Shown here piece after piece: positions 1-44,286 of a stretch of 64,000 bases of DNA (position 1 is the first letter of the stretch; the number at the start of each line of letters is the position of its first letter). A program made the translations under genes and the position numbers. The notes beneath the pieces are model-generated. The model ran no database searches, had not been told where the DNA came from, and worked only from the letters and a program-made list of their open reading frames with translations. The DNA is taken from the IMG/VR virus record IMGVR_UViG_3300036766_000194, positions 235,876-299,875 of that record; one strand, written 5' to 3'. The DNA comes from a virus.

Positions 1-36
1 CATAGCTCCTTTGTGTAAAAACCAAGCCTTAGCCAT
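1..36 (-). CDS. Small protein, N-terminal fragment at window edge (paralogue of 429-665)
   Basis: Only the first 12 codons lie in the window. They start at an ATG at 36 and encode MAKAWFLHKGAM, identical to the start of the gene at 429-665. An AGAGGT ribosome-binding site lies 5 bases upstream. This is probably one member of a tandem family of small minus-strand genes made by local duplication. The function is unknown, and whether the rest of the gene is intact cannot be seen. Confidence 0.45.
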   Translation of the reverse strand, partial: MAKAWFLHKGAM

Positions 37-83
37 TATTGACCTCTATAGTGGAGTGGAAATTAACTCAACTGAGGAAGAAT
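1..83. repeat. Direct repeat, copy 1 (83 bp)
   Basis: This segment is identical by eye to 630-712; the two copies diverge immediately after base 83 (or 712). On the minus strand it holds the upstream region, the ribosome-binding site (AGAGGT) and the first 12 codons of a small gene. The repeat has therefore duplicated a promoter plus gene start. The copy begins at or before the window edge, so its true length is unknown. Confidence 0.9.
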
Positions 84-98
84 GATTTGTAGTCCAAC

Positions 99-362
99 TT
101 ACGAAATCCCGTTTCTAGAATTTCGTAATCCCAAGTAACTAATAATATCACCATTCACCAAGCTCCGTGTATAAGGAGCAAGTTGAACTTCGTTCTGACC
201 GTATTCCCAAACCAAATGGAGAATTCGAGAGTCAAACTCATCATGATCACGACTCTGAATCCCACGAAGAAGTTCGACATCCTTATCTGGAATTTCGACT
301 ATGCGAAAGTAGTTCAAACTATCCCCTTGATACATTCCTCGAAGTTCAACTGGAATTCTCAT
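99..362 (-). CDS. Hypothetical small acidic protein (87 aa)
   Basis: The 87-residue reading frame opens with MRIPVELRGMYQG and is rich in Asp, Glu and Arg, with no membrane segment or signal peptide. The ATG at 362 is preceded by AAGGAG eight bases upstream, a good ribosome-binding site. The start overlaps the stop (ATGA) of a degenerate repeat copy upstream, so it may be translationally coupled. I do not recognise a family. It lies in a duplicated patch of small minus-strand genes that probably encodes host-takeover or accessory proteins, which is inference from position only. Confidence 0.6.
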   Translation of the reverse strand: MRIPVELRGMYQGDSLNYFRIVEIPDKDVELLRGIQSRDHDEFDSRILHLVWEYGQNEVQLAPYTRSLVNGDIISYLGLRNSRNGIS

Positions 363-372
363 TCAAAGTCTC

Positions 373-499
373 CTTGATAAGGAGTCGCAGCACGTTCATC
401 AAGAATTCGTCGGTACGCCAAATTCCAATCAGTATGCTTGATAAGGCCTCGCAGCATTTTCATCAAGAATTCGTCGGTACGCCAAATTCCAATCAGTAT
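373..499. repeat. Tandem duplication, two 63-bp copies with 64-bp period
   Basis: Copy A is 373-435 and copy B is 437-499; they differ at about four bases. On the minus strand both encode a version of TDWNLAYRRILDE. Copy B forms the C-terminus of the gene at 429-665, and copy A lies just after its stop. The 64-base period is not a multiple of three, so the second copy is out of frame with the first and reads as a leftover coding tail. Confidence 0.85.
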
Positions 500-665
500 A
501 CTGACCAAGTTCCTCGAAAGTAGTGACGGAACCGTCATCACCGACCCAACGAGTCGGCATACGACCAACAGAAGCAGCAACATATCCGTCGTTGCGACGC
601 CAGACATAATAAACGTCAGCATCCCTGTCCATAGCTCCTTTGTGTAAAAACCAAGCCTTAGCCAT
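429..665 (-). CDS. Hypothetical small protein (78 aa), duplicated locus
   Basis: The 78-residue protein starts MAKAWFLHKGAM and has a central Trp/Arg-rich segment (VYYVWRRNDGY) and a C-terminal TDWNLAYRRILDE motif. The ATG at 665 has an AGAGGT ribosome-binding site five bases upstream. A second copy of the 5' end lies at 1-83, and a second, out-of-frame copy of the 3' end follows the stop. It ends in TGA. No family is recognised. The Trp-rich WRRNDGY stretch could be a small ligand-binding motif, but this is speculation. It may belong to a fast-evolving tandem gene family. Confidence 0.6.
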   Translation of the reverse strand: MAKAWFLHKGAMDRDADVYYVWRRNDGYVAASVGRMPTRWVGDDGSVTTFEELGQYTDWNLAYRRILDENAARPYQAY

Positions 666-712
666 TATTGACCTCTATAGTGGAGTGGAAATTAACTCAA
701 CTGAGGAAGAAT
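630..712. repeat. Direct repeat, copy 2 (83 bp)
   Basis: This is the second copy of the repeat at 1-83. On the minus strand it supplies the upstream region and first codons of the gene at 429-665. On the plus strand it ends 17 bases before the start of the HMUDK_hel-type gene at 730. The divergent transcription start of that gene is therefore built partly from duplicated sequence. Confidence 0.9.
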
Positions 713-729
713 TAAGTACTTATACAATT

Positions 730-1743
730 ATGCAGATTCCTATTCCTCCTTCTGGAGTTATACCTAACCACATTTTTGAAACCTATTGGAATTTTGCCAG
801 TGAGCGTCAACGTGTGTTTTGGAAACGCAAGAATGGTGAACCAGGTCCTTGGAGTGAAGATCCTATTCTGCAAACCTATAAATTTACCAATACTTACCGG
901 GTACTGGATAGAGTCAGCCAGTACCTATTGAGGAATATCATCGTCTATCCGGAGTGTAGCGATTTGGATTGTACAGTCCACTCTTCTCCTGAGAACACAA
1001 TCTTCCGTATTATGTTCTTTAAGCTATTCAATCGTCCAGAAACTTGGGAAATGCTCAGCAGTGAATTAGGCGAAGAACCCCATATAGATAATTTTAACTT
1101 TACCATCTACGATGAAACTCTTACATCTGCTCAAGATCGTGGAGAGAAAATTTATTCCAACGCATACATGATGACAGCTGCGGGTAGTAACGGGGATCGT
1201 CGTCACCGGATGTATTTGCGATTGTATGAAAAGATGTTTCATGAGGATAAAATCCAGGACAAGATTTTAGAAGCCACTTCACTAGAGGCTCTCTACAATC
1301 TTATCCGTACATATCGGACCATGGGACCATTCCTCGCGATGCAGTACGCAATTGACCTCAATTATTCTCCGTTCGTAAATTTCTTAGAGACAGACTTCAT
1401 CATAGCCGGACCGGGAGCTAGAAGAGGAATCCTAAAATGTTTTGATAGCATAGGAAACCACAATGAAGCTGATGTTATAAGATGGGTTCAAGAAACTCAA
1501 GATGAACAATTTATGTCGCGAGGGTTAGAATTTAAAAAGATAGGAAATCGTCCTCTACAGTTAATTGATTGCCAGTCGTTATTTTGTGAGGTGGATAAAT
1601 TTACAAGAGCAAGTAACCCTGAAATCCAGGTTGAGACAGGATCCGGGGATGCTCAAAAACGAGCAAGGATTAAACAGAACTTCAAGGAAAACAGTAATAA
1701 GATTGAGTATGTGTTTCCCTCCAAATGGGGAGTTAAGATATGA
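730..1743 (+). CDS. 5-hmdU DNA kinase helical-domain (HMUDK_hel / thymine hypermodification) protein
   Basis: The 337-residue protein resembles the alpha-helical domain family (HMUDK_hel, related to the alpha-glutamyl/putrescinyl-thymine pyrophosphorylase group) found in phages that hypermodify thymine. Recognisable segments are FETYWNFASERQRVFWKR (residues 16-33), FTNTYRVLDRVSQYL (52-66) and FRIMFFKLFNRPETWEML (92-109). Known members act on 5-hydroxymethyl-deoxyuridine in phage DNA. The ATG at 730 is chosen over an in-frame TTG at 640: the family similarity begins right after 730, and the extra 30 residues would come from the duplicated upstream repeat. No strong ribosome-binding site is visible. 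The stop overlaps a downstream ATG. The nearby P-loop kinase at 2311 probably works with it. The family call is fairly sure; the exact reaction is inferred. Confidence 0.7.
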   Translation: MQIPIPPSGVIPNHIFETYWNFASERQRVFWKRKNGEPGPWSEDPILQTYKFTNTYRVLDRVSQYLLRNIIVYPECSDLDCTVHSSPENTIFRIMFFKLFNRPETWEMLSSELGEEPHIDNFNFTIYDETLTSAQDRGEKIYSNAYMMTAAGSNGDRRHRMYLRLYEKMFHEDKIQDKILEATSLEALYNLIRTYRTMGPFLAMQYAIDLNYSPFVNFLETDFIIAGPGARRGILKCFDSIGNHNEADVIRWVQETQDEQFMSRGLEFKKIGNRPLQLIDCQSLFCEVDKFTRASNPEIQVETGSGDAQKRARIKQNFKENSNKIEYVFPSKWGVKI

Positions 1744-1913
1744 TGACTTTTCTAGCCAGAGTATCTAGAGGACTTGTAGTTATCTTGAACCTTTATAGTG
1801 ACTTTTATAGTGTTATTAGGGTTGACGGTTTGGACTCTTCTAACAAAGCATCCCTACGGATTCTGGATTATTCTAGGAAGTACGGGAGGGTGTTATCTAA
1901 TGGGTTGGGCTGA
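1743..1913 (+). CDS. Hypothetical small protein (56 aa)
   Basis: The ATG overlaps the TGA stop of the preceding gene (TGATG), a typical translational-coupling junction. The frame runs 56 codons to a TGA at 1911-1913. The peptide is mixed, with a hydrophobic stretch LVVILNLY at residues 11-18 and a basic tail. No family is recognised. The case for a real gene rests on the coupled start and its place in the hypermodification cluster; it could also be chance. Confidence 0.4.
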   Translation: MTFLARVSRGLVVILNLYSDFYSVIRVDGLDSSNKASLRILDYSRKYGRVLSNGLG

Positions 1914-1936
1914 CGAACGCCTAGAATGGTTATGAA

Positions 1937-2308
1937 ATGATAGACCACAAAAAAGACTGGATTGGCGTGGACTTTGACGGTACACTAGCTTTCTATGACA
2001 AATGGCACGGTCCCACCCATCTGGGAGAGCCTCTACCCGAAATGGTGAGTCGGGTGAAGCAGTGGATAGCGGAAGATAAGAATGTTCGTATATTTACTGC
2101 TCGTTGTTATTCTCCTATTGATGATGCCATTGCTCAACGAGAAGCAGCAATGGCCTTACTTGCTATGCAAGAATGGTGTCTAAAGCATCTTGGTGCTGTA
2201 CTTCCTATCACTTGTGTTAAGGATTATGGTATGACCGAATTTTGGGATGATCGTGCCGTACAGATGGAAAAGAATACCGGAAAACCTATAAAATCGCGAG
2301 GTGAGTGA
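1937..2308 (+). CDS. HAD-superfamily phosphatase (phage type)
   Basis: This 123-residue protein has the HAD signature VDFDGTLA at residues 11-18, with both catalytic aspartates (D12 and D14). A middle motif VRIFTAR carries the second conserved hydroxyl residue, and the late acidic motif is FWDDRA. It has the size of compact phage HAD proteins related to the phosphatase half of polynucleotide kinase/phosphatase. The expected reaction is Mg-dependent phosphate-ester hydrolysis; the substrate is unknown. It sits between two predicted hypermodification genes, so it may act on a nucleotide or DNA intermediate, which is inference. The downstream kinase gene starts 2 bases after its TGA stop. Confidence 0.8.
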   Translation: MIDHKKDWIGVDFDGTLAFYDKWHGPTHLGEPLPEMVSRVKQWIAEDKNVRIFTARCYSPIDDAIAQREAAMALLAMQEWCLKHLGAVLPITCVKDYGMTEFWDDRAVQMEKNTGKPIKSRGE

Positions 2309-2310
2309 GA

Positions 2311-2940
2311 ATGTATCCCCAACGTATTATAATAAATTTGAGGTCTACAAATGGAGGCGGCAAAACTTTTGCCGTCAAAAGTCTAATAAAGTATATGCAG
2401 GGAATTCCTATGTTCAGGGATGGGAAGATCTGGGCATATAACCTACAAAATCGTGTCTTCGTTTTGGGTCGTTATGAAACTCCAACCGGAGGATGTGATG
2501 GTATACGGACTCAAGAAGAAATCTACGCAGGTATTCGTGAATTAGCAAAGCTAGGTAGCGTAGTATTTGAAGGTGTTCTTATATCCTGTATGTATGGGAA
2601 ATATCGGGAGCTAGAAGATGAACTCAAGCCCACCCATAACTGGATCTGGGCTTGTCTTGACACGCCGTTAGAAAAGTGTATTGAACAGACTCTAAAACGT
2701 CGGGCGGAGAAAGGTAATACAAAACCATTTGACCCAGAAAAGAGTCTTACAGGTAAATTCAGAGGAGTCATCACAACGCGAGCAACCTTAGAGAAGGAAG
2801 GTAGAGATGTCCGTACCCTTAACCACCAGTTCACTCTGGCGAGTCTCTTAGACTGGCTAGGAGAACGTCCTCTAATTTACAGGTCTGTAGAACGCAGAGA
2901 AGCTGTTAGTCCCATTGATATTATGGGAGAGGTAAAATGA
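2311..2940 (+). CDS. P-loop kinase, probable 5-hydroxymethyl-dU DNA kinase
   Basis: This 209-residue protein opens with a beta strand and Walker A loop, IIINLRSTNGGGKT (residues 6-19), matching the layout of P-loop kinases in thymine-hypermodifying phages. The first Walker A glycine is replaced by Ser. Later segments fit a small-molecule or DNA kinase: an acidic strand VVFEGVLIS, and an Arg-rich region with TLKRRAEKGN like a lid. The ATG at 2311 is chosen because GAGGTG lies seven bases upstream; an in-frame GTG at 2305 would be too close to it. In phages with modified thymine such kinases phosphorylate 5-hydroxymethyl-dU in DNA before amino-acid attachment. The role is inferred from motif plus neighbours. 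Confidence 0.65.
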   Translation: MYPQRIIINLRSTNGGGKTFAVKSLIKYMQGIPMFRDGKIWAYNLQNRVFVLGRYETPTGGCDGIRTQEEIYAGIRELAKLGSVVFEGVLISCMYGKYRELEDELKPTHNWIWACLDTPLEKCIEQTLKRRAEKGNTKPFDPEKSLTGKFRGVITTRATLEKEGRDVRTLNHQFTLASLLDWLGERPLIYRSVERREAVSPIDIMGEVK

Positions 2941-3055
2941 GAGTGATTAAGGAAACATTCGACACTAAATAGCTGCTTATGGCGTTAGACGACATATTGC
3001 TCTTCTTCCAACGTTTTCAAAGTCTTTACAGAAATCTTCCTATAAAGTCCCGACA

Positions 3056-3637
3056 TTACTGCACCAACTCGGGATGACGATACCCCGCCACCGTGAGAAC
3101 CTTGGTAGCATAATCATCCCCGCTAATAGTTCCGTCGTCAGTTCCCATTCCCAGATAGTGATGAAGTCCACCGCGCAATCCGTGAAGTCTTTTGTAAGAA
3201 GATAGAATCTTCGTTCCTTCTTCAATTCCGCGTTCAGGGTCCATAAGATCTTCACAAGGGATGTTCCAAACTCTACTGTTAACCTGCATGTATCCGCAAG
3301 AATAACGCTTAGAAGACGCCTGAGAATGACAACTTGACTCCACAAAAATGAGAGCAGACAATACTCTTGCCGGGATGTTGTGATCAACGGCCTTACGAGC
3401 CGTAATATAGATCAGATCCTCGTCTTCACAGCCATTAGCCGCATAAATATGACGAGAAACATCTTCAGCCATATGATATTTCTTCTGAAGTTTTTCCTGA
3501 GAAATTTGATTGATTATATCCTCAGGGGAGAAAGCCTTAACACGGAGGGGTTGGGGAACTTGAAACTCAGCGGTGATAAAGGACCCTGCTGTAGCTGAGA
3601 AAACTATAATTGAAGTTACAATAACCAATATTCTCAT
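3056..3637 (-). CDS. Secreted SLT-type lytic transglycosylase
   Basis: The 193-residue protein begins with a signal peptide (basic start, hydrophobic residues 3-20, probable cleavage near residue 23). A soluble-lytic-transglycosylase fold follows, with catalytic Glu in ALIFVESSC (E100) and the substrate motif CGYMQVN (114-120). It should cleave the glycan strand of peptidoglycan outside the inner membrane, either in lysis or as an entry enzyme. Two extra Cys pairs (C70 with C103; C114 with C128) suggest disulfides in the periplasm. The start has no ribosome-binding site; a TAGAAT hexamer lies six bases before the ATG (see 3643-3650). It is convergent with the modification cluster. Confidence 0.88.
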   Translation of the reverse strand: MRILVIVTSIIVFSATAGSFITAEFQVPQPLRVKAFSPEDIINQISQEKLQKKYHMAEDVSRHIYAANGCEDEDLIYITARKAVDHNIPARVLSALIFVESSCHSQASSKRYSCGYMQVNSRVWNIPCEDLMDPERGIEEGTKILSSYKRLHGLRGGLHHYLGMGTDDGTISGDDYATKVLTVAGYRHPELVQ

Positions 3638-3642
3638 ACAGG

Positions 3643-3650
3643 TATTCTAC
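3643..3650 (-). promoter_or_regulatory. GTAGAATA motif before lytic transglycosylase start
   Basis: On the minus strand this reads GTAGAATA, with TAGAAT resembling a -10 element and only six bases between it and the ATG at 3637. No ribosome-binding site fits between them, so the transcript would be nearly leaderless. The same octamer precedes the starts at 50439 and 61123. No -35 match is visible. Confidence 0.3.
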
Positions 3651-3699
3651 TGTAGAAAGCAGACTTCGGTTAGTTTGTAAACCTATGTAGATACTGTAG

Positions 3700-3939
3700 T
3701 TACTTGCTTAATTCAGCCTTCAAAGCATCGTGACTCTGGCCCTTATTAACTTTTCCATCAATAATGTGTTTCCAATTATCTCCCGGTCCAGTCCATACTT
3801 CTTCATTTCCTCTAGTGTAGTGATCCCATCCAGAAGGTTCAGCATGTTGGAATTCAAAACCTAAAGGAGTGAGCAACGCCATATCTTCATCACGATCGCG
3901 AGCATCAGCCCAACGGAATAAACGGGAAGTAAGTCTCAT
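3700..3939 (-). CDS. Hypothetical protein (79 aa), possible TGA-readthrough extension
   Basis: The 79-residue protein starts MRLTSRLFRWADARD; AGAGG lies six bases before the ATG at 3939. It is charged and has WDHYTRGNEEVWTGPGDNWKH in its middle, and I do not recognise the family. The reading frame is open upstream for another 36 codons to a TGA at 4048-4050. In the same frame 12 codons further up is an ATG at 4086 with a strong ribosome-binding site (AAAGGTGAG). A UCA-anticodon tRNA ends 12 bases upstream of that ATG. The product could therefore be 79 residues, or about 128 if the TGA is read through. Confidence 0.55.
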   Translation of the reverse strand: MRLTSRLFRWADARDRDEDMALLTPLGFEFQHAEPSGWDHYTRGNEEVWTGPGDNWKHIIDGKVNKGQSHDALKAELSK

Positions 3940-4097
3940 GGGTGCCTCTATAATGAAAGCGAAAAATTGGTGCCTGCAATAACGAATTTTCGAACGAATA
4001 GAGTATTCATAGATAGACGGACGCTCTGTTCGGCGCAACCCGTCAAATCACAAAAACCAAAAATATTCTTTTTGTTTTTCAGTCATAGTCTCACCTT

Positions 4098-4171
4098 TGG
4101 AACGCCCGACGAGACTTGTACCCGCAACCTTCCCTTTTGAAGAGGGCTGCTCTACATTGAGCTACGGGCGT
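4098..4171 (-). tRNA. tRNA with UCA anticodon (opal suppressor type)
   Basis: The minus strand folds into a 71-base cloverleaf plus encoded CCA. The acceptor ACGCCCG pairs fully with CGGGCGT, and the discriminator base is U. The D stem is GCTC/GAGC with a short six-base loop. The anticodon stem is CCCT/AGGG with an outer G-A mismatch, and its seven-base loop is CTTCAAA. The T stem includes two G-U pairs, and the loop is TACAAGT. Loop positions 3-5 give UCA, which pairs with UGA. The short variable loop rules out a selenocysteine tRNA. The unusual D and T loops could mean weak function. The charged amino acid cannot be told from sequence. Confidence 0.75.
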
Positions 4172-4177
4172 GTAGTT

Positions 4178-4327
4178 TTACCAAGATTCATATTCCGTTA
4201 CGTCTAAACTATCGTTACACTTGTTACAGCGGACTACAGTGTTTGGTCCAATTCCACTTGCCCCGCTCTGCGCTACAGTAATATTCTCTCCCTCACAATC
4301 AAACTGGTGGGTAAGAGGGATAAATGG
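4178..4327 (-). pseudogene. Start-less reading frame with Cys pairs (zinc-finger-like remnant)
   Basis: A minus-strand frame of 49 codons ends in TAA at 4178. It encodes a plausible small metal-binding peptide with HQFDCEGENI near the start and VVRCNKCNDSLDV near the end. It has no ATG, GTG or TTG of its own after the in-frame TGA at 4328-4330. A GTG three codons above that TGA (4339) would be the nearest start if the TGA were read through. Either it is a broken gene or it is translated by opal readthrough; the UCA tRNA lies directly downstream. Confidence 0.3.
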
Positions 4328-4389
4328 TCACGTTACCACTTCATGAGATCTGAACTTATAAAGATAGCAGGTTGGTTACAGGAACACCA

Positions 4390-4533
4390 TTACGAGAGAA
4401 ATAGGATCAATTCGTATGAGCATTCCAGCAAAAGTAAATTGATAGATGCTTGTTTAAGAATTTCGTTAACAGCAAGTTGTAAATCAAGAGGTAACGGCGT
4501 TAATTGCCGTAACTCATCATCCAGAGATGACAT
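4390..4533 (-). CDS. Hypothetical small protein (47 aa)
   Basis: The 47-residue frame starts with an ATG at 4533, five bases after a GGAGAG ribosome-binding site, and lies 18 bases below the stop of the upstream tail gene. The sequence opens MSSLDDELRQLTPLPLD and continues as an amphipathic helix ending in a Leu-rich tail. Compactness, ribosome-binding site and same-strand spacing suggest a real operon member. The overlapping plus-strand frame has only a GTG start and no ribosome-binding site. The function is unknown. Confidence 0.5.
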   Translation of the reverse strand: MSSLDDELRQLTPLPLDLQLAVNEILKQASINLLLLECSYELILFLS

Positions 4534-4551
4534 TGTAACTCTCCTTAAAGA

Positions 4552-5190
4552 CTAGAACGACAAAATCCAACTAAAAATTAAATTGACTCCAGGCGGTAGT
4601 AAAAGAGGGGGTAGGGTCTTATAATTTATTAGAGTAACTGAATTAGGACTCGGTCCTCCCCCATATGAAATGTCAGCGGGGTTCCAATAAGGAGCCGTAA
4701 GCATGTTGGTGGGAGTCTGCTTAGATCCTCCTCCAATTAAGCCCATTTCTCTTATTCCCACACCTGTGATGTTATCTGTGGTTGCGTTAACAAGTGTTTG
4801 AAAATCCACAAGATTGGTAAACTTTGTAACCGGAGTAAAATTTATATTGTCTGTGGTCGTAACGAAATTTACAGTACTAAGCTGCTTACGCAATACCTGA
4901 GCGATGAGAGCCGTCTGACCAGGGGTTTCTGTAGGCTGGGTATCAGGACTCCAGGTGGGATCTCCAGTTCCTAGAGCCAGTCCCCAAACCGCATAGAGAC
5001 AATCGCTTGATAGAACATTCGGTCCCGAAATGAGAGCCGTATTGGGGAGGTTATTCGCCATGAGTCTAGCAAACAAACTCTTAACTGTGTTGACTATAAC
5101 ATTGGGACTCTGCCACAGAATTTCTCCCGTATCTTGACGAATGATACGCGGTAGCCCCTTTACAACTGTGTTTTCGACATGCTCTAGCAT
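4552..5190 (-). CDS. Tail/baseplate-associated structural protein (212 aa)
   Basis: The protein has a helical N-terminus (MLEHVENTVVKGLPRI, residues 1-16). A core follows of the type seen in phage tail-fibre or baseplate accessory proteins: ALGTGDPTWSPDTQPTETP, then LRKQLSTVNF, and a late GIREMGLIGGG turn. That GIREMGL-like segment recurs in virion proteins encoded beside tail-fibre genes, where it lies in a small beta domain. The C-terminus is hydrophobic (VNLIFSWILSF), typical of a buried final strand. It is the last gene of the minus-strand virion cluster and ends in TAG. The role as a structural protein is likely; its exact position in the tail is unknown. Confidence 0.6.
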   Translation of the reverse strand: MLEHVENTVVKGLPRIIRQDTGEILWQSPNVIVNTVKSLFARLMANNLPNTALISGPNVLSSDCLYAVWGLALGTGDPTWSPDTQPTETPGQTALIAQVLRKQLSTVNFVTTTDNINFTPVTKFTNLVDFQTLVNATTDNITGVGIREMGLIGGGSKQTPTNMLTAPYWNPADISYGGGPSPNSVTLINYKTLPPLLLPPGVNLIFSWILSF

Positions 5191-5214
5191 AGTGCTCCTC
5201 TAAAATAATACCTT

Positions 5215-7422: not shown

Positions 7423-10400
7423 TTAACTCGTTTTGTAATCCAGCTGTATTCTTCCCGGTACGAAATATTCAGTGCTTGATATCTGTATATCCTTGGCTCC
7501 GCCTTCTCCAAAAACTTGATAAGTTACAAAATAGGACTGTAATCCTGGATTTGCTATAGTAGAAGGAATAGTGATTAGAATTTTCTGAGCATAAGAAGAG
7601 CTTAGGGATTGAGTACTGCTTATTTGATCATTTGTTCCAATTATGTAGAAACTAGGAACAGTACTATTTACTAGGAAATCTTGAACACTTGTAGCTCTAC
7701 GATACGCTTGTCCTTGATACAACAATCCTACATAAGCAGTTGAGGATCCTCCTCCGGGGATAGTCGCATCGGGGAGAACAGCAGAATTGGTTATAAATGA
7801 CTGTATGGGTAATTGTAAGTTTGTAAAAGAAGGATCCGAACTTAAAGGATTCCAGGTTGTCTGTGAAGGGACCACAATTCCTATGTCATAAGCTCCATCA
7901 CTCTTAGCAAACTTTATCAAAGGAAGCTGTACATTGGTAACTCCTGTTACAGACTTAACCTGACGAACAACTTCGGACATGACCAACTTATTACCGGGTA
8001 CATTGTCTAAAACAATGCTAATCATGCTACGGATCTTGGCATCTATAACATCCGGAGATACCTGGGAAGAGATCTCCACCACCATTGTTATATCAACGGG
8101 GTTAGCAATCATTGACTTAACCAGGACATCTGCTGCTGCGTGCTTTGTTACCGCAATTTGAGTTGCTAACTGATTAACAAAAGCAGGATATTGGGTACTT
8201 ATTGAAAATGTCTCATTGATGAAGTAGCTAACTTTCACCGTAGACCCCGTAGGGATCTGTCCTGTAAGAATTCTTGCTAGGCTTGCTATTCCACTGGTGG
8301 AATTATATACTAGAGAAAAGTCAATCCCTTCACGCATAACAACATCAATACCTGCTACGGTAAGTGTTACTTTTATGTATCGGTTATCGTGAGCAATTCC
8401 TGCTCCGGTTAACCCCGTTGCTAAGAGAGGATCGGTGTTAAAACCGTCCAAAGACAGTTGAGTGAAGTCATAAGACTCAGGCATCCACACGTTATGAATA
8501 AACCCCGAGTTTGCCAATTGGCTAGAAACAGTTCCATTAAGAGTTGTGTTTTCTTGATTTACAAATGTAACCTGTTCATATAGAGAATACTTGTAATATG
8601 AAACCACCAAAACAGGGGGATTGACACTGGCTGGGGCAGGAATGCTCCCTGTAGAAACCCTATTCAAACTCCAGTTGTTATAACGTCCAGTCCTAACCAA
8701 GGTGTAATCCACCCCATAAGTATACAAGGTAGAAAGGTCCCCACTACGAACAACTAAGGAAGGTAACACCTGACCGTTGATGGTTTTTTGTAGAACTACG
8801 TTTGCTCCCGAATCAACGTCAACGGACATTGCGTTATCAATAGAAACTATGGAAGAAGTTAACGAGACATTTTTAGTTGTCTGTAATAGGCTAGAAGACG
8901 GAATCAAAATCGTATCTCCTGCTAACTGAGAACCCCCATTCAATAGAAAATCTTGGGTGCGTACTAGTTGTATTGAAGTAGGAGAAACCACCCCGGTATT
9001 CTGATTTCCAGTTACGCTATTCACAGAAATAATGGGTTGTAGGGTAGGAACATTGTTCAAAGGAGTATGAATTCTAGCAAACATTCCTATGCTATAGGTT
9101 CCAGCAGAAGCGGATTGTAAGGCATTGACAGCCACTGAATTTGTAGCCGAAACACCTGCTATGACAAGAGGTTGCTGAGATACAAATACAGAATTTCCTA
9201 CCAGTTGATAGGCTAATTCGTTGGGATTCAAGAAAAGAAACCCATCTGTATTGTCAATGAAAGAATTCAAAGTACCTAAATAAAACGATTGACCACCTCG
9301 TTGTACAATAACTTCTACTGCCTGTTCTAAAGGAGAAGTTAGCTGAGAAAACCCACTTATAGAAAATTTCAAAATACTGCGATCCACAAGAGTCAAGGGA
9401 GTGTAAGCACTAAATGTCCCCTGAGGAGCAGTGTTTTGATATTGATAAATCGCGGTTTCTGTCTGCTGAGAATTGGACGAACCACGAACATATAAATCAA
9501 CTGTACCAAAGACGTGTTTCTGTCGAATAGGATCCCAATCACGCAGCATCTCTAGATCCCCAGCGGCCACAACATTAGCAGCAACAATAGAAGGAATAGC
9601 ACGAGCCTGAATTAAGTATCCATTCCGTGTTCCTGTATCAACTCCAGTAACAATACGGTCCTGAATCTGGGCTGCATAAACAGAATTGTTTTGGCTGTCA
9701 GTTCCAAAATTAGCCGGAACTAAGTTTGTTACACTCCAACCTTGAGGTCCCCCACTAACCACTGTAGTAATTGTTCCTACTCCTACATTTCCAATACTTC
9801 CAGTGGTTGTACACTGAGCGGGAACTATCACCTGGTATCTTCCATATTGGGAATCGAAAAAACTGGACGCGGAGGCAGGAGAAATAGACGCACTTCCTGT
9901 AGTTACAAAATTTAACGCAGGAGTCTGAGAGTTTGGGCTAGTTGCTACAATAGCTCCTTGAGGGATAACTATAGATTGTAGAGGTTTAGTGTATGTGTAG
10001 AAAGTAAGATTAACAACCGCTGTTGTAGATCCCCCTCTCACAACACCTGCCTGCTCACCCAACATATCAAACTGCTTATTGATGAATGCCTGTGTATCAG
10101 AAGCCTTCATTCCATAAGCTCTAGAAATCTGCTGTTTTATAGGAGAATCAGAGTAAGAGTCACTAATTCCATCATTATTAGCATCATCAATCTGAGTAAT
10201 AGCACTGATACTAGAAGCCATATGACTGAACCACTCTCGAACAGACATGTTAGATAGTTCTACTGCGATAGGATCAATAACTAAGTCACGCAATTCGGAA
10301 CGAGGAGTTAAGTCTAGTTGAGGATAGGCGCGAGTAATTTGAGAGATCATTCTCCCTGCTATATCCTCCTTACGCTGTAATCCTAAAAAGTCTGTAGGAT

Positions 10401-11340
10401 TTACCTTCTTTAGATTGACAAAACCACAAGTAAGAGGACCATTCTGCTGAGACTCAAACACCACGTTGGTAGTGGGGTCTTGAATAACTGTAGAAAATAA
10501 GGCATAAAACTTGTCCGAATTGATAGCTGAGGTAGGGACAAAAATAGAACTATAATTGGTTGTTTGGGTTGAAGTAACAGTGGTTGCTGTGGTAGTGTTT
10601 CCACTAACGACCGTGGTGGTATTAGAAGTAACCGGGTCGTTTGATGTCCTGCTGATGGTTGTTACCAAGTCTCCAAATTGAGTATAGGGTATCGTAACCC
10701 CGGAAGAATCTGTTGATAATACAGCTCTTACACCTAAAAATCCGGTGAAAGGGGGAGTTGCCCATTCTAATTGACAAGATTGGGAACCCTTATAAGCTCT
10801 TAAAGCTGATGGAGGACTAATCTTTAAAGCTAGTCCTGAATTGAAGAATAGAAGAGTAAACTTAGAAGTCGGTGTTATAGCGATGGGCCCTAAACACTTC
10901 CAAATAACTGTTCCATCTGTGGTAATAGAACTTGGTACAGTTCCCCAAGTAGGTGCTGTGAACCCCGTAATCCCTGCGATCAAAACTACCTGAACATTTC
11001 CATTGCTATCGGTAACTCTATAACCCACAGCAAGAGAAGTAGAAGTGGCCCATACTACGTTTGGGACATAATTTCTTCCCGTAATCTGTACAGTTGTTGA
11101 AGCTACACTAGTGTCTAGAGGTATGGTCCCAGAAAATGTGTTAAAAAATCCTGTAACAGGATTTGAAAATACCAGAGTCTGACTGTAGATAGAAATTTCT
11201 AAACGTATGGTATTAGCATCGGTTTGAACCTTAAAAGGTAAGATAGAAGTGTCAACAGACAGAGTGCTTACCCCTTCTGTAGAAGGTATGTAAGGCGACA
11301 AAATAGATATAGGTGTTAAGCTAGAAATCGGTGCTGACAT
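7423..11340 (-). CDS. Baseplate J-like wedge protein (1305 aa)
   Basis: A central region of about residues 340-640 has the features of baseplate J/gp6-type wedge proteins. There is a membrane-distal helix (DLTPRSELRDLVIDPIAVEL), an alpha bundle with QISRAYGMKASDTQAFINKQ, then RGGSTTAVVNLTF and IPQGAIVATSPN typical of the J fold. After this come DRIVTGVDTGTRNGYLIQAR and ARAIPSIVAANVVAAGDLEM, where J proteins describe ring assembly. N- and C-terminal extensions are Ser/Thr-rich beta domains. At 1305 residues it is much longer than P2-type J, as in large phages. An N-terminal module (about residues 92-153) matches a module in the two neighbouring tail proteins. Confidence 0.75.
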   Translation of the reverse strand: MSAPISSLTPISILSPYIPSTEGVSTLSVDTSILPFKVQTDANTIRLEISIYSQTLVFSNPVTGFFNTFSGTIPLDTSVASTTVQITGRNYVPNVVWATSTSLAVGYRVTDSNGNVQVVLIAGITGFTAPTWGTVPSSITTDGTVIWKCLGPIAITPTSKFTLLFFNSGLALKISPPSALRAYKGSQSCQLEWATPPFTGFLGVRAVLSTDSSGVTIPYTQFGDLVTTISRTSNDPVTSNTTTVVSGNTTTATTVTSTQTTNYSSIFVPTSAINSDKFYALFSTVIQDPTTNVVFESQQNGPLTCGFVNLKKVNPTDFLGLQRKEDIAGRMISQITRAYPQLDLTPRSELRDLVIDPIAVELSNMSVREWFSHMASSISAITQIDDANNDGISDSYSDSPIKQQISRAYGMKASDTQAFINKQFDMLGEQAGVVRGGSTTAVVNLTFYTYTKPLQSIVIPQGAIVATSPNSQTPALNFVTTGSASISPASASSFFDSQYGRYQVIVPAQCTTTGSIGNVGVGTITTVVSGGPQGWSVTNLVPANFGTDSQNNSVYAAQIQDRIVTGVDTGTRNGYLIQARAIPSIVAANVVAAGDLEMLRDWDPIRQKHVFGTVDLYVRGSSNSQQTETAIYQYQNTAPQGTFSAYTPLTLVDRSILKFSISGFSQLTSPLEQAVEVIVQRGGQSFYLGTLNSFIDNTDGFLFLNPNELAYQLVGNSVFVSQQPLVIAGVSATNSVAVNALQSASAGTYSIGMFARIHTPLNNVPTLQPIISVNSVTGNQNTGVVSPTSIQLVRTQDFLLNGGSQLAGDTILIPSSSLLQTTKNVSLTSSIVSIDNAMSVDVDSGANVVLQKTINGQVLPSLVVRSGDLSTLYTYGVDYTLVRTGRYNNWSLNRVSTGSIPAPASVNPPVLVVSYYKYSLYEQVTFVNQENTTLNGTVSSQLANSGFIHNVWMPESYDFTQLSLDGFNTDPLLATGLTGAGIAHDNRYIKVTLTVAGIDVVMREGIDFSLVYNSTSGIASLARILTGQIPTGSTVKVSYFINETFSISTQYPAFVNQLATQIAVTKHAAADVLVKSMIANPVDITMVVEISSQVSPDVIDAKIRSMISIVLDNVPGNKLVMSEVVRQVKSVTGVTNVQLPLIKFAKSDGAYDIGIVVPSQTTWNPLSSDPSFTNLQLPIQSFITNSAVLPDATIPGGGSSTAYVGLLYQGQAYRRATSVQDFLVNSTVPSFYIIGTNDQISSTQSLSSSYAQKILITIPSTIANPGLQSYFVTYQVFGEGGAKDIQISSTEYFVPGRIQLDYKTS

Positions 11341-39489: not shown

Positions 39490-41785
39490 CGGAAAAATAT
39501 AATCCCTCATTATGACAAATGTCAGTTGACTCATCTGTTATTCTAGCTAACCCTTTACGAATAAACTTTTGTGCTGTAGTAATGTTATCAGTTTTGGAAT
39601 CATGGCGAAAAGCGGCGTCTTCTAAAATAAAATCTCCAGTTATATTCCAATGTACGTTCCCCTTCACTGTCCAGTCAACGTCTCCATTAATTTCTAAACG
39701 AAGTCCCTTCTTCTGGTTGTTATGCCCGATGACCATCTCAACTCCACCATCAAGGGTGGCTGTTATAGAACGACCTTGAGTAGAATCTTTTCCAATCCAG
39801 GCTACAATTCCCCCAGCTAAATCCAAAAGTAATGACTGATTATTAACCTCATCAGCACCTATTCTTAGAAGAACATCTCTAACAGTATGAAAATCTATAG
39901 ACAACCCCTGTTGATCCATATTAGCTACAGGCATACCAGACCAATTATAAGGGAACATGTTAAGTTTTGGTTTACCTGCCTGAGTCAGATCATGAAAAGC
40001 ATAAGTTGAATCACCCGATCCATAGGTTGGACGGCCTGCTGTTTTAGAATCTTTACGACTAGGATCAGATATGGAATAAGGATGTTGCCCCTTAGCATCT
40101 TTGTAACCATTTACTAAATGACGACGTTTTGAGTTAGGATGACGGGCACCAAAACGAATAACGGCTCCTCCATCTAAAGCAGCCCGAAGAGAGATATTCT
40201 CGGCTCCCTTCTTATTCTCAAGATCTATAGCATCACCAGGAGACAGATTAGATTTTGACCAATATTGAAGAGAACGTGAAACCACCTTGTCAGACTGTCC
40301 ACGTTCTTGATAAAGAGTTTCATGACGGTCATTGGGAAGAGAAGTGTCATCCGAACCCAAGCGCATCACTGTTTGACCTAAAGCGGTGAGGTCAATGGAT
40401 TCTTCTTCGTCACGATTCTTACCCACCACGAGCTTTAGAGACCCCGTTAAATTTCCTTCTAAAGATCGCCCCGCTCCATGAGGATGCTCATAAGGAGTGC
40501 CCAGATTGAAAGGATTCTTTTCATAAGGAAGAGTGCTACCTATCTCAAAAGTAGAAAAACCTTCTTTGGTGATGTCAAAACGAGTGGTATTGTGTTCGGA
40601 AGGAAATTTAAATGAAAATGTGGAAGCTGCTACTTGCGCTTCAACTTTAAAAGGGTCATTTTGTACCGGAATATAGGAAGACTCTACGTCAGCACCAAAA
40701 CGTCCTAATCTTGTGTAGGGGAAAACCACAGGTTTTAGAACCAAACCATAGGTAGTCTGGTCAAATTGGTTGTGTCCTACGAGAGTACCTTCTGTCTTTT
40801 CGATAATCCAACCGCGACGACGAGGTGTGGTTCCTTCACCCGTAATAGGCCCAACTGCTTTTGTATCTCGGCTGTAAGGATGATCGGAATCTTGAGAAAC
40901 TAAAAAAGTTTCGTCATCTACATAGATTTTCCCATCGGCACTGAGATTAACTTTCGTTCTTTCTGCTGGAGGTCGAGTGGTTCCTAAGATAGTATCTAAC
41001 AACTTGTCTTGTAAGATTTCTTGGGGAACCGCATAATCTAAAGCAAATTCTTGAATCTTTTCTGTCTTTTCAGAGAAAGCAATTATGTCAGAAGTACCCA
41101 CTCCTTCTAAATAGCGGTGAGAAAGTATGGTATCAAAAAGATGAACTATGTATTGCTTAGAACCATCGGGGAGTATAGAAGGGTGTATACCTACCGCTCC
41201 AGGGCGATTGACAGGTCCAGAAAATTCTAAGCCAGCATCGGTGTAACGGACTTGACGAGAAGTGGTTTCTGTATGAGTACGGGAGTTTACATCTAGTTTA
41301 TCCCGGCTAAAATCCGAAGCTAGGTGATCCCACCCTTCATCTGTCTTCTGAGAATATCCCCCGGTGAGAACCGTGGTATGTTGACCAGGGTATGTTTTAC
41401 GATAAGTCCCGCGAGTGCGTTCTCTCCAGCCGGGAATACCTTCAATAGTTCTATGTGCGATAGCATCAATTCCATTTACAGTATTATCTACAAGGTAAGA
41501 TACAATGGCTACTTCGGCAAATCCGTTATTGTAAGCGATCTTTAAAGCCAAACAAGCTGCTCCCTCTTCGGGCATGTTAACATCAGTAGCGGTTACGGAT
41601 GAATAACTAGCTGGCAGGATTCTTACTTCAGAAAATACCATCTGATTTCTGTCATCCTGTATCGTACATACTTTCCGTTCATAGTCTACAGACAGAATAT
41701 GGGCCAGAAACGGTTGATATTTATCGTCTAAACGAGAAAAATCATCCGGGGCAGGAAGATAACCATGTGAGTTATCGTTTATCAT
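39476..41785 (-). CDS. Baseplate central spike (OB-fold plus beta-helix, 769 aa)
   Basis: The N-terminal 120 residues form an OB-fold-like domain as in gpV/gp5 spikes (YERKVCTIQDDRNQMVFSEV, then NMPEEGAACLALKIAYNNGF and EVAIVSYL). After a mixed middle region the C-terminal 250 residues show short repeated strands (SLRAALDGGAVIRFGA, LDLAGGIVAWIGKD, TLDGGVEMVIGH, DVDWTVKGNVHWNITG) that suit a triple-stranded beta-helix. It should form the puncturing tip below the hub protein encoded upstream (one-base overlap). No lysozyme motif is seen in it, unlike T4 gp5. Confidence 0.72.
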   Translation of the reverse strand: MINDNSHGYLPAPDDFSRLDDKYQPFLAHILSVDYERKVCTIQDDRNQMVFSEVRILPASYSSVTATDVNMPEEGAACLALKIAYNNGFAEVAIVSYLVDNTVNGIDAIAHRTIEGIPGWRERTRGTYRKTYPGQHTTVLTGGYSQKTDEGWDHLASDFSRDKLDVNSRTHTETTSRQVRYTDAGLEFSGPVNRPGAVGIHPSILPDGSKQYIVHLFDTILSHRYLEGVGTSDIIAFSEKTEKIQEFALDYAVPQEILQDKLLDTILGTTRPPAERTKVNLSADGKIYVDDETFLVSQDSDHPYSRDTKAVGPITGEGTTPRRRGWIIEKTEGTLVGHNQFDQTTYGLVLKPVVFPYTRLGRFGADVESSYIPVQNDPFKVEAQVAASTFSFKFPSEHNTTRFDITKEGFSTFEIGSTLPYEKNPFNLGTPYEHPHGAGRSLEGNLTGSLKLVVGKNRDEEESIDLTALGQTVMRLGSDDTSLPNDRHETLYQERGQSDKVVSRSLQYWSKSNLSPGDAIDLENKKGAENISLRAALDGGAVIRFGARHPNSKRRHLVNGYKDAKGQHPYSISDPSRKDSKTAGRPTYGSGDSTYAFHDLTQAGKPKLNMFPYNWSGMPVANMDQQGLSIDFHTVRDVLLRIGADEVNNQSLLLDLAGGIVAWIGKDSTQGRSITATLDGGVEMVIGHNNQKKGLRLEINGDVDWTVKGNVHWNITGDFILEDAAFRHDSKTDNITTAQKFIRKGLARITDESTDICHNEGLYFSDENT

Positions 41786-44286
41786 TATAGAGATTCACCT
41801 GTTTCTGTAAGGGTCGGAATGTTTTTTAGTGCTAAGGCATCCTGTACAGATGTCTTAGAAGCGCTAGGAGACCCACTTAAAAATACGGATATTTTTGCCT
41901 TTTCAGAAGAATCAGTCTTTTGTATAAGTTGGGTATCTAACTTTTGAATATTGTCAGGTTGAGGTTTCTGGGTCAGTGAATTTTCGTAAGAAAGTTCTAT
42001 TATGGTTTTATTGTTAGGGCTTGCAGACCCACTCTTGATGCTATTCAAAGTGTTTGTGAGATCGGAAGCCGCTGTAGAACCTGAAGAACTAGGAGTTTCT
42101 AGACCCGCAAATAAGAAAACATCGGTACCTTTAATAATTTGAGAACTTTCATTATCTTCTGCCGAAGCGATTATGTACCCTTCTTGGGTAAATTCCCAGA
42201 GTGCTGTCTTTAAATCCGTGTATCGTCCCCAAGGAAAGGGAGCCACGACTTCATACCCTTTACCATCAGTAAACGGCAGGGTTCCAGGGTCTTGAAGAGC
42301 GTGGTAGTAACTAGAATCAACAATTCTAGGATTGGAAAACACCTTATCAGAGTCTTCCTGTATATTCCAATTAGACGTCTTGGTATCTGGGTGAGGTGAC
42401 ATATGAAGACCCAAAGCCGACTGCCTATAGTTTATGACTTTTATATCATCATCAGAAGTAGTATCTTTGGCATCTTTTGTTATTGAACTTGCCTGTCCTA
42501 TTAACGAACCATCAACATTTTGTACTCTACTAGTAGCTAGTGTAGTGTTGGGTGCTGCTTCTTTTGGGGTTAAAAAGGTAGTCCATTTATGTACTAGATT
42601 GGGTTGAGTGGTGTATACTATTCTCTCATTATTCGTTCCCTCTTTGTTTTCTGTACTACGAGGAAACATAGGACGTTTACGGAGAGTATCCATGGTAATT
42701 GTCATGGTAGCTTCTCCACCTATTTGATAGTTCAGAGAAATATTGTTGATGTAACCATACATGTCTTTATGAGGTATGAAACATGGAAATCCTAGTCTTA
42801 TCTCTGGGCGCATAGGAATAGTAACAGCGTAAGTCCTGTATCCCCTATTAGCACGAGTAAGATCCATAACTGCGTGAGCAAAAATTGCTTCGTGATCACT
42901 ATCTTGTAACCAGTGACGTTGTTGCATTGGAGATTCTCTAAGTCCAAATTGAGCTAATTTTGGTAAATCAACATACTCCGCAGAAGCCAACAGAGAACTA
43001 TTTGTATCTACTTGAAACTTTACACTAAGAGTTCCTTGCAGAACTACACGAGTCGCTCTTACCGCCGCTTGATCTTCTGTTTCATGTTCACTTCTAATTT
43101 CTGATAAATTTATGATAAAAGGGTTGTTGTGAGTGTTTATATCTGTGCTAGGAGTAGAAGCAAACTTTTTGGAAGCATTACTACTCTCACTTCCCAGATT
43201 AGTGACATCCAAATTATACATAGGTGGTTTTATTATAATCTGACCATCAATGTCCTGGTATCCTTCAAATAAAATTGTGCTAACTACAGAACGAAGACGA
43301 TCTAAACGATTAACGAAATTTCCGTTAACAAGTTGAATCGCAGCCACCGACATTTCTGGCGTGTATTTACGGATGGCATCATAGTTAACATTAGAAATAG
43401 AATCCGATTCAGTCTGCACTCCTTGACGCATGTTTCTTACAGCCTGAAGATTCCTAGCTTGAGTTCCTTTAAGTCCAGGTTTAGTCGTGGCGTTTATTGC
43501 TATTATGGTATCATTGACTTCTTTTTCTGTAAGCCCATATATATGAACGTCTTGACCCAAGCTCTGGGATATAGCTTGCCATCTTGCTATGTATCCCTCT
43601 TTTATGGCATCAAAATAGGGGCTATTGGTTTCTTGAGTGTATGTTCCTCCCGAACCTCCCGCTGTACTCGCTCCTGCTACGGTGTCTGTTTGAAATCCAT
43701 CAGTATAGATAGAAGTCAAGAACACTGCTGCTGCTTGTTGATAAGGATTTAGGTTAGAATGTGTTGTAGTTAATGGAGTAGTTGCCATTATTGAATTTGT
43801 TTGAATAGTAGGATGGAGTTCTATCTGCATCTTCTCTAAGAACTGTAAAACTCCCATACATTGTACAGAAATTTCTAGAGACTTTCCATCATCCTGATGA
43901 CTTATATGGGATACAAGACCTTTAAATACTCTACGATACAAAGTATTACCATTGTTGGCTAGGTAGTATCCCTTAGCATAAACCTGTACTTCCATCATAG
44001 ACTTAATTAGATTTGTTCCACCCGGCACTTGATACAGATATTTGAGATGGTTGGGGACTGAAATGGAAACAGTAGCTCCAGGAACCCAGTTATCTACAGC
44101 GTAAGAAGAATTGAACCCCGTAACATGGTCATTGAAGTTCACTAGAGATACTGGATCATTTTCTGAGGTAGCTAAGAAGGGATTTATTAGATAAGGAAGA
44201 CCGTTAAAATACACAACAATATCTGGGGATGTTTTAACAATCTCACGTTCTTGAGCAGACTGCGATACATTTCGTATCATTCCCAT
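41785..44286 (-). CDS. Baseplate hub protein, gp27/gpD-like (833 aa)
   Basis: The gene directly precedes the spike gene (one-base overlap), the usual hub-spike pair. The N-terminal 450 residues contain FNSSYAVDNWVPGATVSISV, TLYRRVFKGLVSHISHQ and ISVQCMGVLQFLEKMQI, like the first beta-barrel of gp27/gpD hub proteins. Residues about 470-545 include RTYAVTIPMRPEIRLGFPCF and EATMTITMDTLRKRP, matching the second barrel. The C-terminal 250 residues are Ser/Thr/Asp-rich and disordered-looking. The trimer should join the tail tube to the spike. The C-terminal tail is unassigned. Confidence 0.7.
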   Translation of the reverse strand: MGMIRNVSQSAQEREIVKTSPDIVVYFNGLPYLINPFLATSENDPVSLVNFNDHVTGFNSSYAVDNWVPGATVSISVPNHLKYLYQVPGGTNLIKSMMEVQVYAKGYYLANNGNTLYRRVFKGLVSHISHQDDGKSLEISVQCMGVLQFLEKMQIELHPTIQTNSIMATTPLTTTHSNLNPYQQAAAVFLTSIYTDGFQTDTVAGASTAGGSGGTYTQETNSPYFDAIKEGYIARWQAISQSLGQDVHIYGLTEKEVNDTIIAINATTKPGLKGTQARNLQAVRNMRQGVQTESDSISNVNYDAIRKYTPEMSVAAIQLVNGNFVNRLDRLRSVVSTILFEGYQDIDGQIIIKPPMYNLDVTNLGSESSNASKKFASTPSTDINTHNNPFIINLSEIRSEHETEDQAAVRATRVVLQGTLSVKFQVDTNSSLLASAEYVDLPKLAQFGLRESPMQQRHWLQDSDHEAIFAHAVMDLTRANRGYRTYAVTIPMRPEIRLGFPCFIPHKDMYGYINNISLNYQIGGEATMTITMDTLRKRPMFPRSTENKEGTNNERIVYTTQPNLVHKWTTFLTPKEAAPNTTLATSRVQNVDGSLIGQASSITKDAKDTTSDDDIKVINYRQSALGLHMSPHPDTKTSNWNIQEDSDKVFSNPRIVDSSYYHALQDPGTLPFTDGKGYEVVAPFPWGRYTDLKTALWEFTQEGYIIASAEDNESSQIIKGTDVFLFAGLETPSSSGSTAASDLTNTLNSIKSGSASPNNKTIIELSYENSLTQKPQPDNIQKLDTQLIQKTDSSEKAKISVFLSGSPSASKTSVQDALALKNIPTLTETGESL

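Follow-up and report, generated by a model that had tools for sequence, protein, structure and literature searches.

A UCA-anticodon tRNA, and its amber- and opal-anticodon relatives, in jumbo phages that keep the standard genetic code

Background

Phage-encoded tRNAs with stop anticodons are usually explained by recoding. In code-15 phages, crAss-like and others, CUA amber suppressor tRNAs go together with in-frame TAG in many genes (PMC13037316, PMC9523058), and CUA tRNAs are also known from recoded jumbo phages (PMC13037316). A suppressor tRNA in a phage without recoding is not new in itself, given the precedent of the Agrobacterium jumbo phage Atu_ph07 (MF403008), which encodes a UCA suppressor tRNA and has 267 UGA stop codons (PMC6102473). 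A third point of reference is Tunturi_5 (PP885688), a 309-kb phage of Tunturiibacter (Acidobacteriota) with 42-43 tRNAs (PMC11924767).

The DNA analysed here (the window) is a stretch of 64,000 nucleotides, bases 235876-299875 of the 299,875-base IMG/VR record IMGVR_UViG_3300036766_000194. Judged by sequence, its source is a jumbo phage of ~300 kb related to Tunturi_5: a search with its baseplate protein (window 7423-11340) matched Tunturi_5, at 47% identity and hence in the same jumbo clade, and 25 metagenomic loci. The host phylum is probably Acidobacteriota, a placement drawn from the kinship with Tunturi_5 and from nothing else. Like Atu_ph07, the window phage is a jumbo phage with a near-complete tRNA set (47 ARAGORN calls in the whole record, covering all 20 amino acids), a single UCA tRNA and UGA as an abundant stop. 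The UCA tRNA of Atu_ph07, however, has G1-C72, A73 and normal D and T loops, a dissimilarity that makes an independent origin probable, and no CUA tRNA is reported for that phage (PMC6102473), unlike the clade described here. With the code-15 phages the window phage shares a phage-encoded stop-anticodon tRNA but not the recoding, and its CUA-carrying relatives keep TAG stops. Tunturi_5 differs in that no stop-anticodon tRNA, tmRNA or RNase P RNA was found in it and, as a cultured relative without stop tRNAs, it offers a laboratory comparison system.

Set against the open-licence literature, what is new is the apparent common lineage of opal and amber tRNAs, their altered elbow and their tmRNA neighbourhood. 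A family of stop-anticodon tRNAs kept under the standard code, and apparently changing the stop codon that it reads, raises the question of what purpose is served by a suppressor without obvious targets; its position in a module adjoining a phage tmRNA suggests a role in controlling termination and rescuing ribosomes.

The tRNA gene and its neighbourhood

The features discussed below are as follows (window coordinates).

4098..4171, minus strand: tRNA gene with UCA anticodon (reads UGA) and encoded CCA (ARAGORN; Rfam RF00005; ten-sequence alignment with other stop-anticodon tRNAs)
4138..4140, minus strand: anticodon TCA (UCA), U33 before it and A37 after it (ARAGORN anticodon at position 32; plus strand TGA)
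4114..4120, minus strand: atypical T loop TACAAGT, A55 replacing U55 (ARAGORN cloverleaf; clade T-loop comparison)
4153..4158, minus strand: short D loop AATGTA without the G18-G19 pair (ARAGORN cloverleaf; clade D-loop comparison)
4552..5190, minus strand: tail/baseplate protein whose gene closes the baseplate operon and directly precedes the tRNA on its strand (PF25691 BW3TFN, 24.7 bits, below the cut-off of 27; homologs in six relatives)
7423..11340, minus strand: baseplate J-like wedge protein, the query for relatives (PF04865, E 2e-10; phrog_6)
3056..3637, minus strand: lytic transglycosylase-like gene downstream of the tRNA (PF01464 SLT, 25.9 bits)
3700..4038, minus strand: small ORF adjoining the tRNA (ORF only), with no Pfam or PHROG match

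The original prediction had read a minus-strand cloverleaf from the letters alone, with a UCA anticodon in the loop CTTCAAA between CCCT and AGGG, and ARAGORN makes the same assignment in an exact call (4098-4171, minus, anticodon TCA). The full-length match to RF00005, at 54.8 bits (E 4.8e-9) against a gathering score of 29, indicates that the tRNA fold is no accident. In the ARAGORN cloverleaf the acceptor stem ACGCCCG/CGGGCGT pairs perfectly at 7/7 positions, the discriminator is U73 and CCA is encoded, just as had been claimed for stem and CCA. The D stem is GCTC/GAGC, the anticodon stem carries a G27-A43 mismatch above CCCT/AGGG, and the variable loop has 5 bases. The seven-base anticodon loop holds U33, a UGA-complementary anticodon and A37, as befits an opal suppressor. 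Bacterial tRNA-Sec is defined by an 8-bp acceptor and a long variable arm, so that the 7-bp acceptor and 5-base variable loop rule out this identity with near certainty; the ARAGORN label 'tRNA-SeC' arises from the anticodon alone.

Outside the D and T loops, the molecule is built like an ordinary elongator tRNA. Those two loops had been singled out as short and atypical, and they are: the D loop AATGTA has 6 bases with a single G and no GG, and the T loop TACAAGT carries A55. The canonical elbow (G18-G19 with U55-C56), usual in tRNAs if not strictly defining of suppressors, is thus absent, and the G18-U55 contact of tRNA structure is gone from both sides. Such an altered elbow could lower folding, modification or charging of the tRNA. 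As a separate observation, the T loops of three sense tRNAs of the phage start with ATC, namely Gly(UCC) at L002:9878-9952, Arg(CCU) at L009:6427-6502 and Lys(UUU) at L009:7667-7742; two of the three carry U58, and here the usual U54-A58 pair may have been swapped for A54-U58.

The predicted location in a virion-side cluster is borne out, the tRNA lying directly downstream of the baseplate/tail operon on the same strand; no promoter or terminator for it was found above chance. A sister phage (L017/G001) matches the window phage at ~99.9% identity over a span that starts at window 5213 and reaches at least 14000; below 5213 its genes differ, and its 27.6-kb contig has no tRNA. This comparison (window 1-5212 against L017) places a recombination boundary at position 5213, by the end of the tail operon. 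A 5-hydroxymethyl-dU DNA kinase helical domain is encoded at window 640-1743 (PF18723, E 5e-98), which suggests hypermodified phage DNA.

The genetic code is unchanged

A phage that has recoded UGA (code 4/25) has many in-frame UGA codons and few UGA stops, and the window phage shows no such pattern. Structural ORFs of 1305, 1796, 2002 and 1312 aa run under the standard code without an in-frame UGA, and the 179 homology-supported genes end in TAA (94), TAG (43) and TGA (42). Reading the whole genome under altered codes gave no TGA-specific gain, long-ORF coverage being 0.716 with TGA as sense against 0.730 with TAA as sense. No phage release factor gene was found in the genome, and a codon-usage search of the gaps for UGA-split genes, of little power, returned no hits. 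The anticodon alone speaks for recoding, in that recoded phages carry such tRNAs (PMC13037316). Genome-wide UGA recoding, present or very recent, is contradicted by the long UGA-free ORFs and the 42/179 UGA ends; it is highly improbable and, barring a large number of overlooked split genes, this genome refutes it. Since UGA ends about a quarter of genes, the code is unchanged and the UCA tRNA must do something subtler.

The original prediction, partly borne out, was that the phage may read some UGA codons as an amino acid, or did so in a recent ancestor. Present reading of some UGA codons is a slender possibility to which one in-frame UGA at a cysteine position and the fewer TGA ends of late genes (see below) now lend a little substance. 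Frame-aware comparison of stop contexts with relatives yielded one convincing internal UGA, at record position 112567; other hits for homology across in-frame stops were mostly antisense shadows or same-frame adjacent genes, and were removed by the frame filter. The UGA lies outside the window in a zinc-ribbon-like ORF of 56 codons (L007:12513-12683, record 112513-112683) that reads MSYEVFIKRTIYVAKCVT[UGA]EESDIKTGNPPRERFCNTCQVWVPYKEESYIGPDLKK, with an ATG start, an RBS-like AAGGA upstream and a TAA end. It takes the place of the second Cys in a CxxC knuckle, C-V-T-UGA here against CPHC in the homolog of one relative (G030).

This UGA could be decoded as cysteine, or it could be a plain nonsense mutation, and a single case cannot decide. 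That the tRNA reads UGA as cysteine at a handful of sites like this one, programmed or tolerated, on the tRNA-Cys-like identity of U73, C35 and A36, seems decidedly unlikely. The case is single, the one homolog shares 44% over 48 residues and no synteny, the ORF has no match in cultured phages, and ordinary nonsense mutation may suffice. Moreover, C2-G71/G3-C70/U73 recalls the tRNA-Gly of the clade equally well, and CysRS normally requires G34. Isotype prediction trained on the tRNAs of 15 phages (70% right overall) gave Lys and Arg as top guesses, which were set aside because the classifier was worst on these classes (2/12 and 4/20).

A proposed family of stop-anticodon tRNAs in related phages

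Pattern scans of IMG/VR found dozens of tRNAs with a CUA anticodon and, beyond the window tRNA, four intact ones with UCA. Most other viral UCA hits seem to be tRNAs whose anticodon loop is interrupted, and not UCA tRNAs; the same holds for all 18 bacterial hits (85k genomes), with group I introns as the probable cause.

When about 370 tRNAs of 15 clade phages (the window phage and 14 related) were compared with their anticodons masked, the best match of the window tRNA was the UCA tRNA of one relative, G019 (56/76), followed mostly by CUA tRNAs; five of its six best matches were stop-anticodon tRNAs. The nearest neighbours of the G019 tRNA were in turn the window tRNA and the CUA tRNA of G012, tied. 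G019 has 57% GC against 43% in the window phage, and its UCA tRNA has the identical acceptor stem, U73 and an A55 T loop, and lies beside the same Thr-Thr-Thr-Gln-Cys tRNA cluster; an A55 T loop (TAAAAAT) also occurs in the CUA tRNAs of G012 and G021. From these mutual matches and the shared T loop, CUA and UCA tRNAs seem to form a single lineage, in which the anticodon has apparently changed between amber and opal without any recoding of whole genomes. The surmise that the gene is maintained is in keeping with its intactness, the second UCA copy in G019 and the sister CUA tRNAs of relatives, and 'opal-suppressor-type tRNA' holds as a description of a real, intact gene of a kind conserved in the clade.

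A place near the tmRNA and Thr/Gln tRNAs is, beside the masked match to another stop tRNA, the second mark of the proposed clade-specific family, and the window tRNA shows both. The phage has a permuted tmRNA (RF04321, 51.6 bits; L013:14274-14654, record 234274-234654) a little beyond the window, at 5.3 kb from the UCA tRNA on its downstream side; ARAGORN also found permuted tmRNAs in G012, G014, G021, G026, G028 and G030, and an ordinary tmRNA in G005. In the window phage the order is UCA tRNA, tmRNA, then Gln/Thr tRNAs; in G012, G014, G021, G028 and G030 a CUA tRNA lies between the tmRNA and Ile/Thr/Gln tRNAs and, in contigs that include the baseplate operon, adjoins that operon. In all six phages the stop tRNA is 2.5-5.5 kb from the tmRNA and near Ile/Thr/Gln tRNAs, a neighbourhood that the window phage shares with its relatives. 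The exception is G026, with its CUA tRNA in another part of the genome, far from its own tmRNA. The modules of G028 and G030 also contain tRNAs of unassignable anticodon.

The altered elbow recurs in several stop tRNAs of the clade. Among the 15 phages the T loop begins with TTC in 8/15 stop tRNAs against 318/351 sense tRNAs, and GG is present in 9/15 D loops of the former against 333/351 of the latter; non-canonical D and T loops are thus enriched in stop tRNAs at p of about 1e-4 and 4e-4, values inflated by related sequences.

Possible roles

The reading that we tentatively prefer is that of a functional stop-anticodon tRNA acting as a partial, late nonsense suppressor and forming no part of a changed code. 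From an intact UCA tRNA under the standard code, with kin UCA and CUA tRNAs and a mostly shared location by tmRNA and baseplate genes, we infer every step beyond the existence and conservation of the gene. The tRNA would be transcribed along with the late genes and charged by a host synthetase, and late in infection, competing weakly with release factor 2, would place its amino acid at some of the UGA codons. Late phage genes, mostly UAA-ended, would be little affected, whereas UGA-ended messages of the host and of early genes would suffer readthrough, and ribosomes running off message ends would be freed by the phage tmRNA. The gain might lie in disturbed host termination with tmRNA recycling, or in decoding a few phage UGA codons; decoding of the latter, for example at record position 112567, may be a by-product or an extra use. 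Extended to the jumbo phages of this soil clade, the same idea would make stop tRNA and tmRNA a dedicated module, in which an altered-elbow lineage reads UAG or UGA by anticodon switch, late host stops are read through, UAA-ended late genes are spared and ribosomes are recycled by tmRNA; this larger scheme is quite unlikely to hold in full.

Stop usage hints, without proof, at active stop tRNAs. In the window phage TGA ends 9/80 supported genes of the late half against 28/85 of the early half (p=0.0013, kinship ignored), 'late' being defined by position (150-300 kb) and not by expression. Late TAG ends number 31/297 in CUA carriers against 76/302, though carriers also use more TAA overall. These tests are post hoc and ignore phylogeny, and the pattern is uneven: orthologs in Tunturi_5 and G015 show no late/early TGA contrast, G005 and G007 have a late UGA deficit although they are without a UCA tRNA, and the UCA carrier G019 has no deficit of TGA in late genes (5/19).

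The main rival, itself somewhat unlikely, holds that the tRNA does not decode at all and serves as a decoy or sink, for instance for a host anticodon nuclease, or as a tRNA-like RNA with another role. The non-canonical loops of the clade's stop tRNAs and the presence of both stop anticodons in one lineage would then reflect absent selection for efficient decoding, and there is literature support for phage tRNAs as answers to tRNA-targeting defences (PMC10264068). Against this, U33, A37, CCA and a 7-bp acceptor are kept in the window phage, G019, G012 and G021. Nor should an anticodon that drifts at random be confined to stop anticodons, an argument that is not decisive because members were chosen for CUA or UCA and because G028 and G030 have tRNAs of unassignable anticodon. 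Very doubtful is a relic, a decaying pseudogene that no longer has a role, made visible by the G019 copy and chance: it would account for the odd elbow, and it fits the sister phage G001, which is 99.9% identical in the baseplate genes and differs downstream. A clearly degenerate tRNA does exist elsewhere in the genome, a UUA (ochre) gene at L002:9571-9641, the second 'stop' tRNA of the record, which looks degenerate with G33 for U33, no CCA and 34.9 bits. The UCA tRNA, by contrast, has its perfect acceptor, U33, A37 and CCA, and G019, at its different GC content, retains the same acceptor and anticodon, which speaks against a relic.

Other RNA genes

Outside the window the record carries a full-length class A RNase P RNA (RF00010, 255 bits; L004:1519-1894, record 41519-41894). 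RNase P RNAs also occur in G003, G014, G015, G028 and G030 (165-267 bits), several of them amid tRNA genes; no description of RNase P RNA in jumbo phages was found in the open-licence literature searched. A further match, to the CyVA-1 RNA (RF02965, 54 bits), lies at L006:18828-18905.
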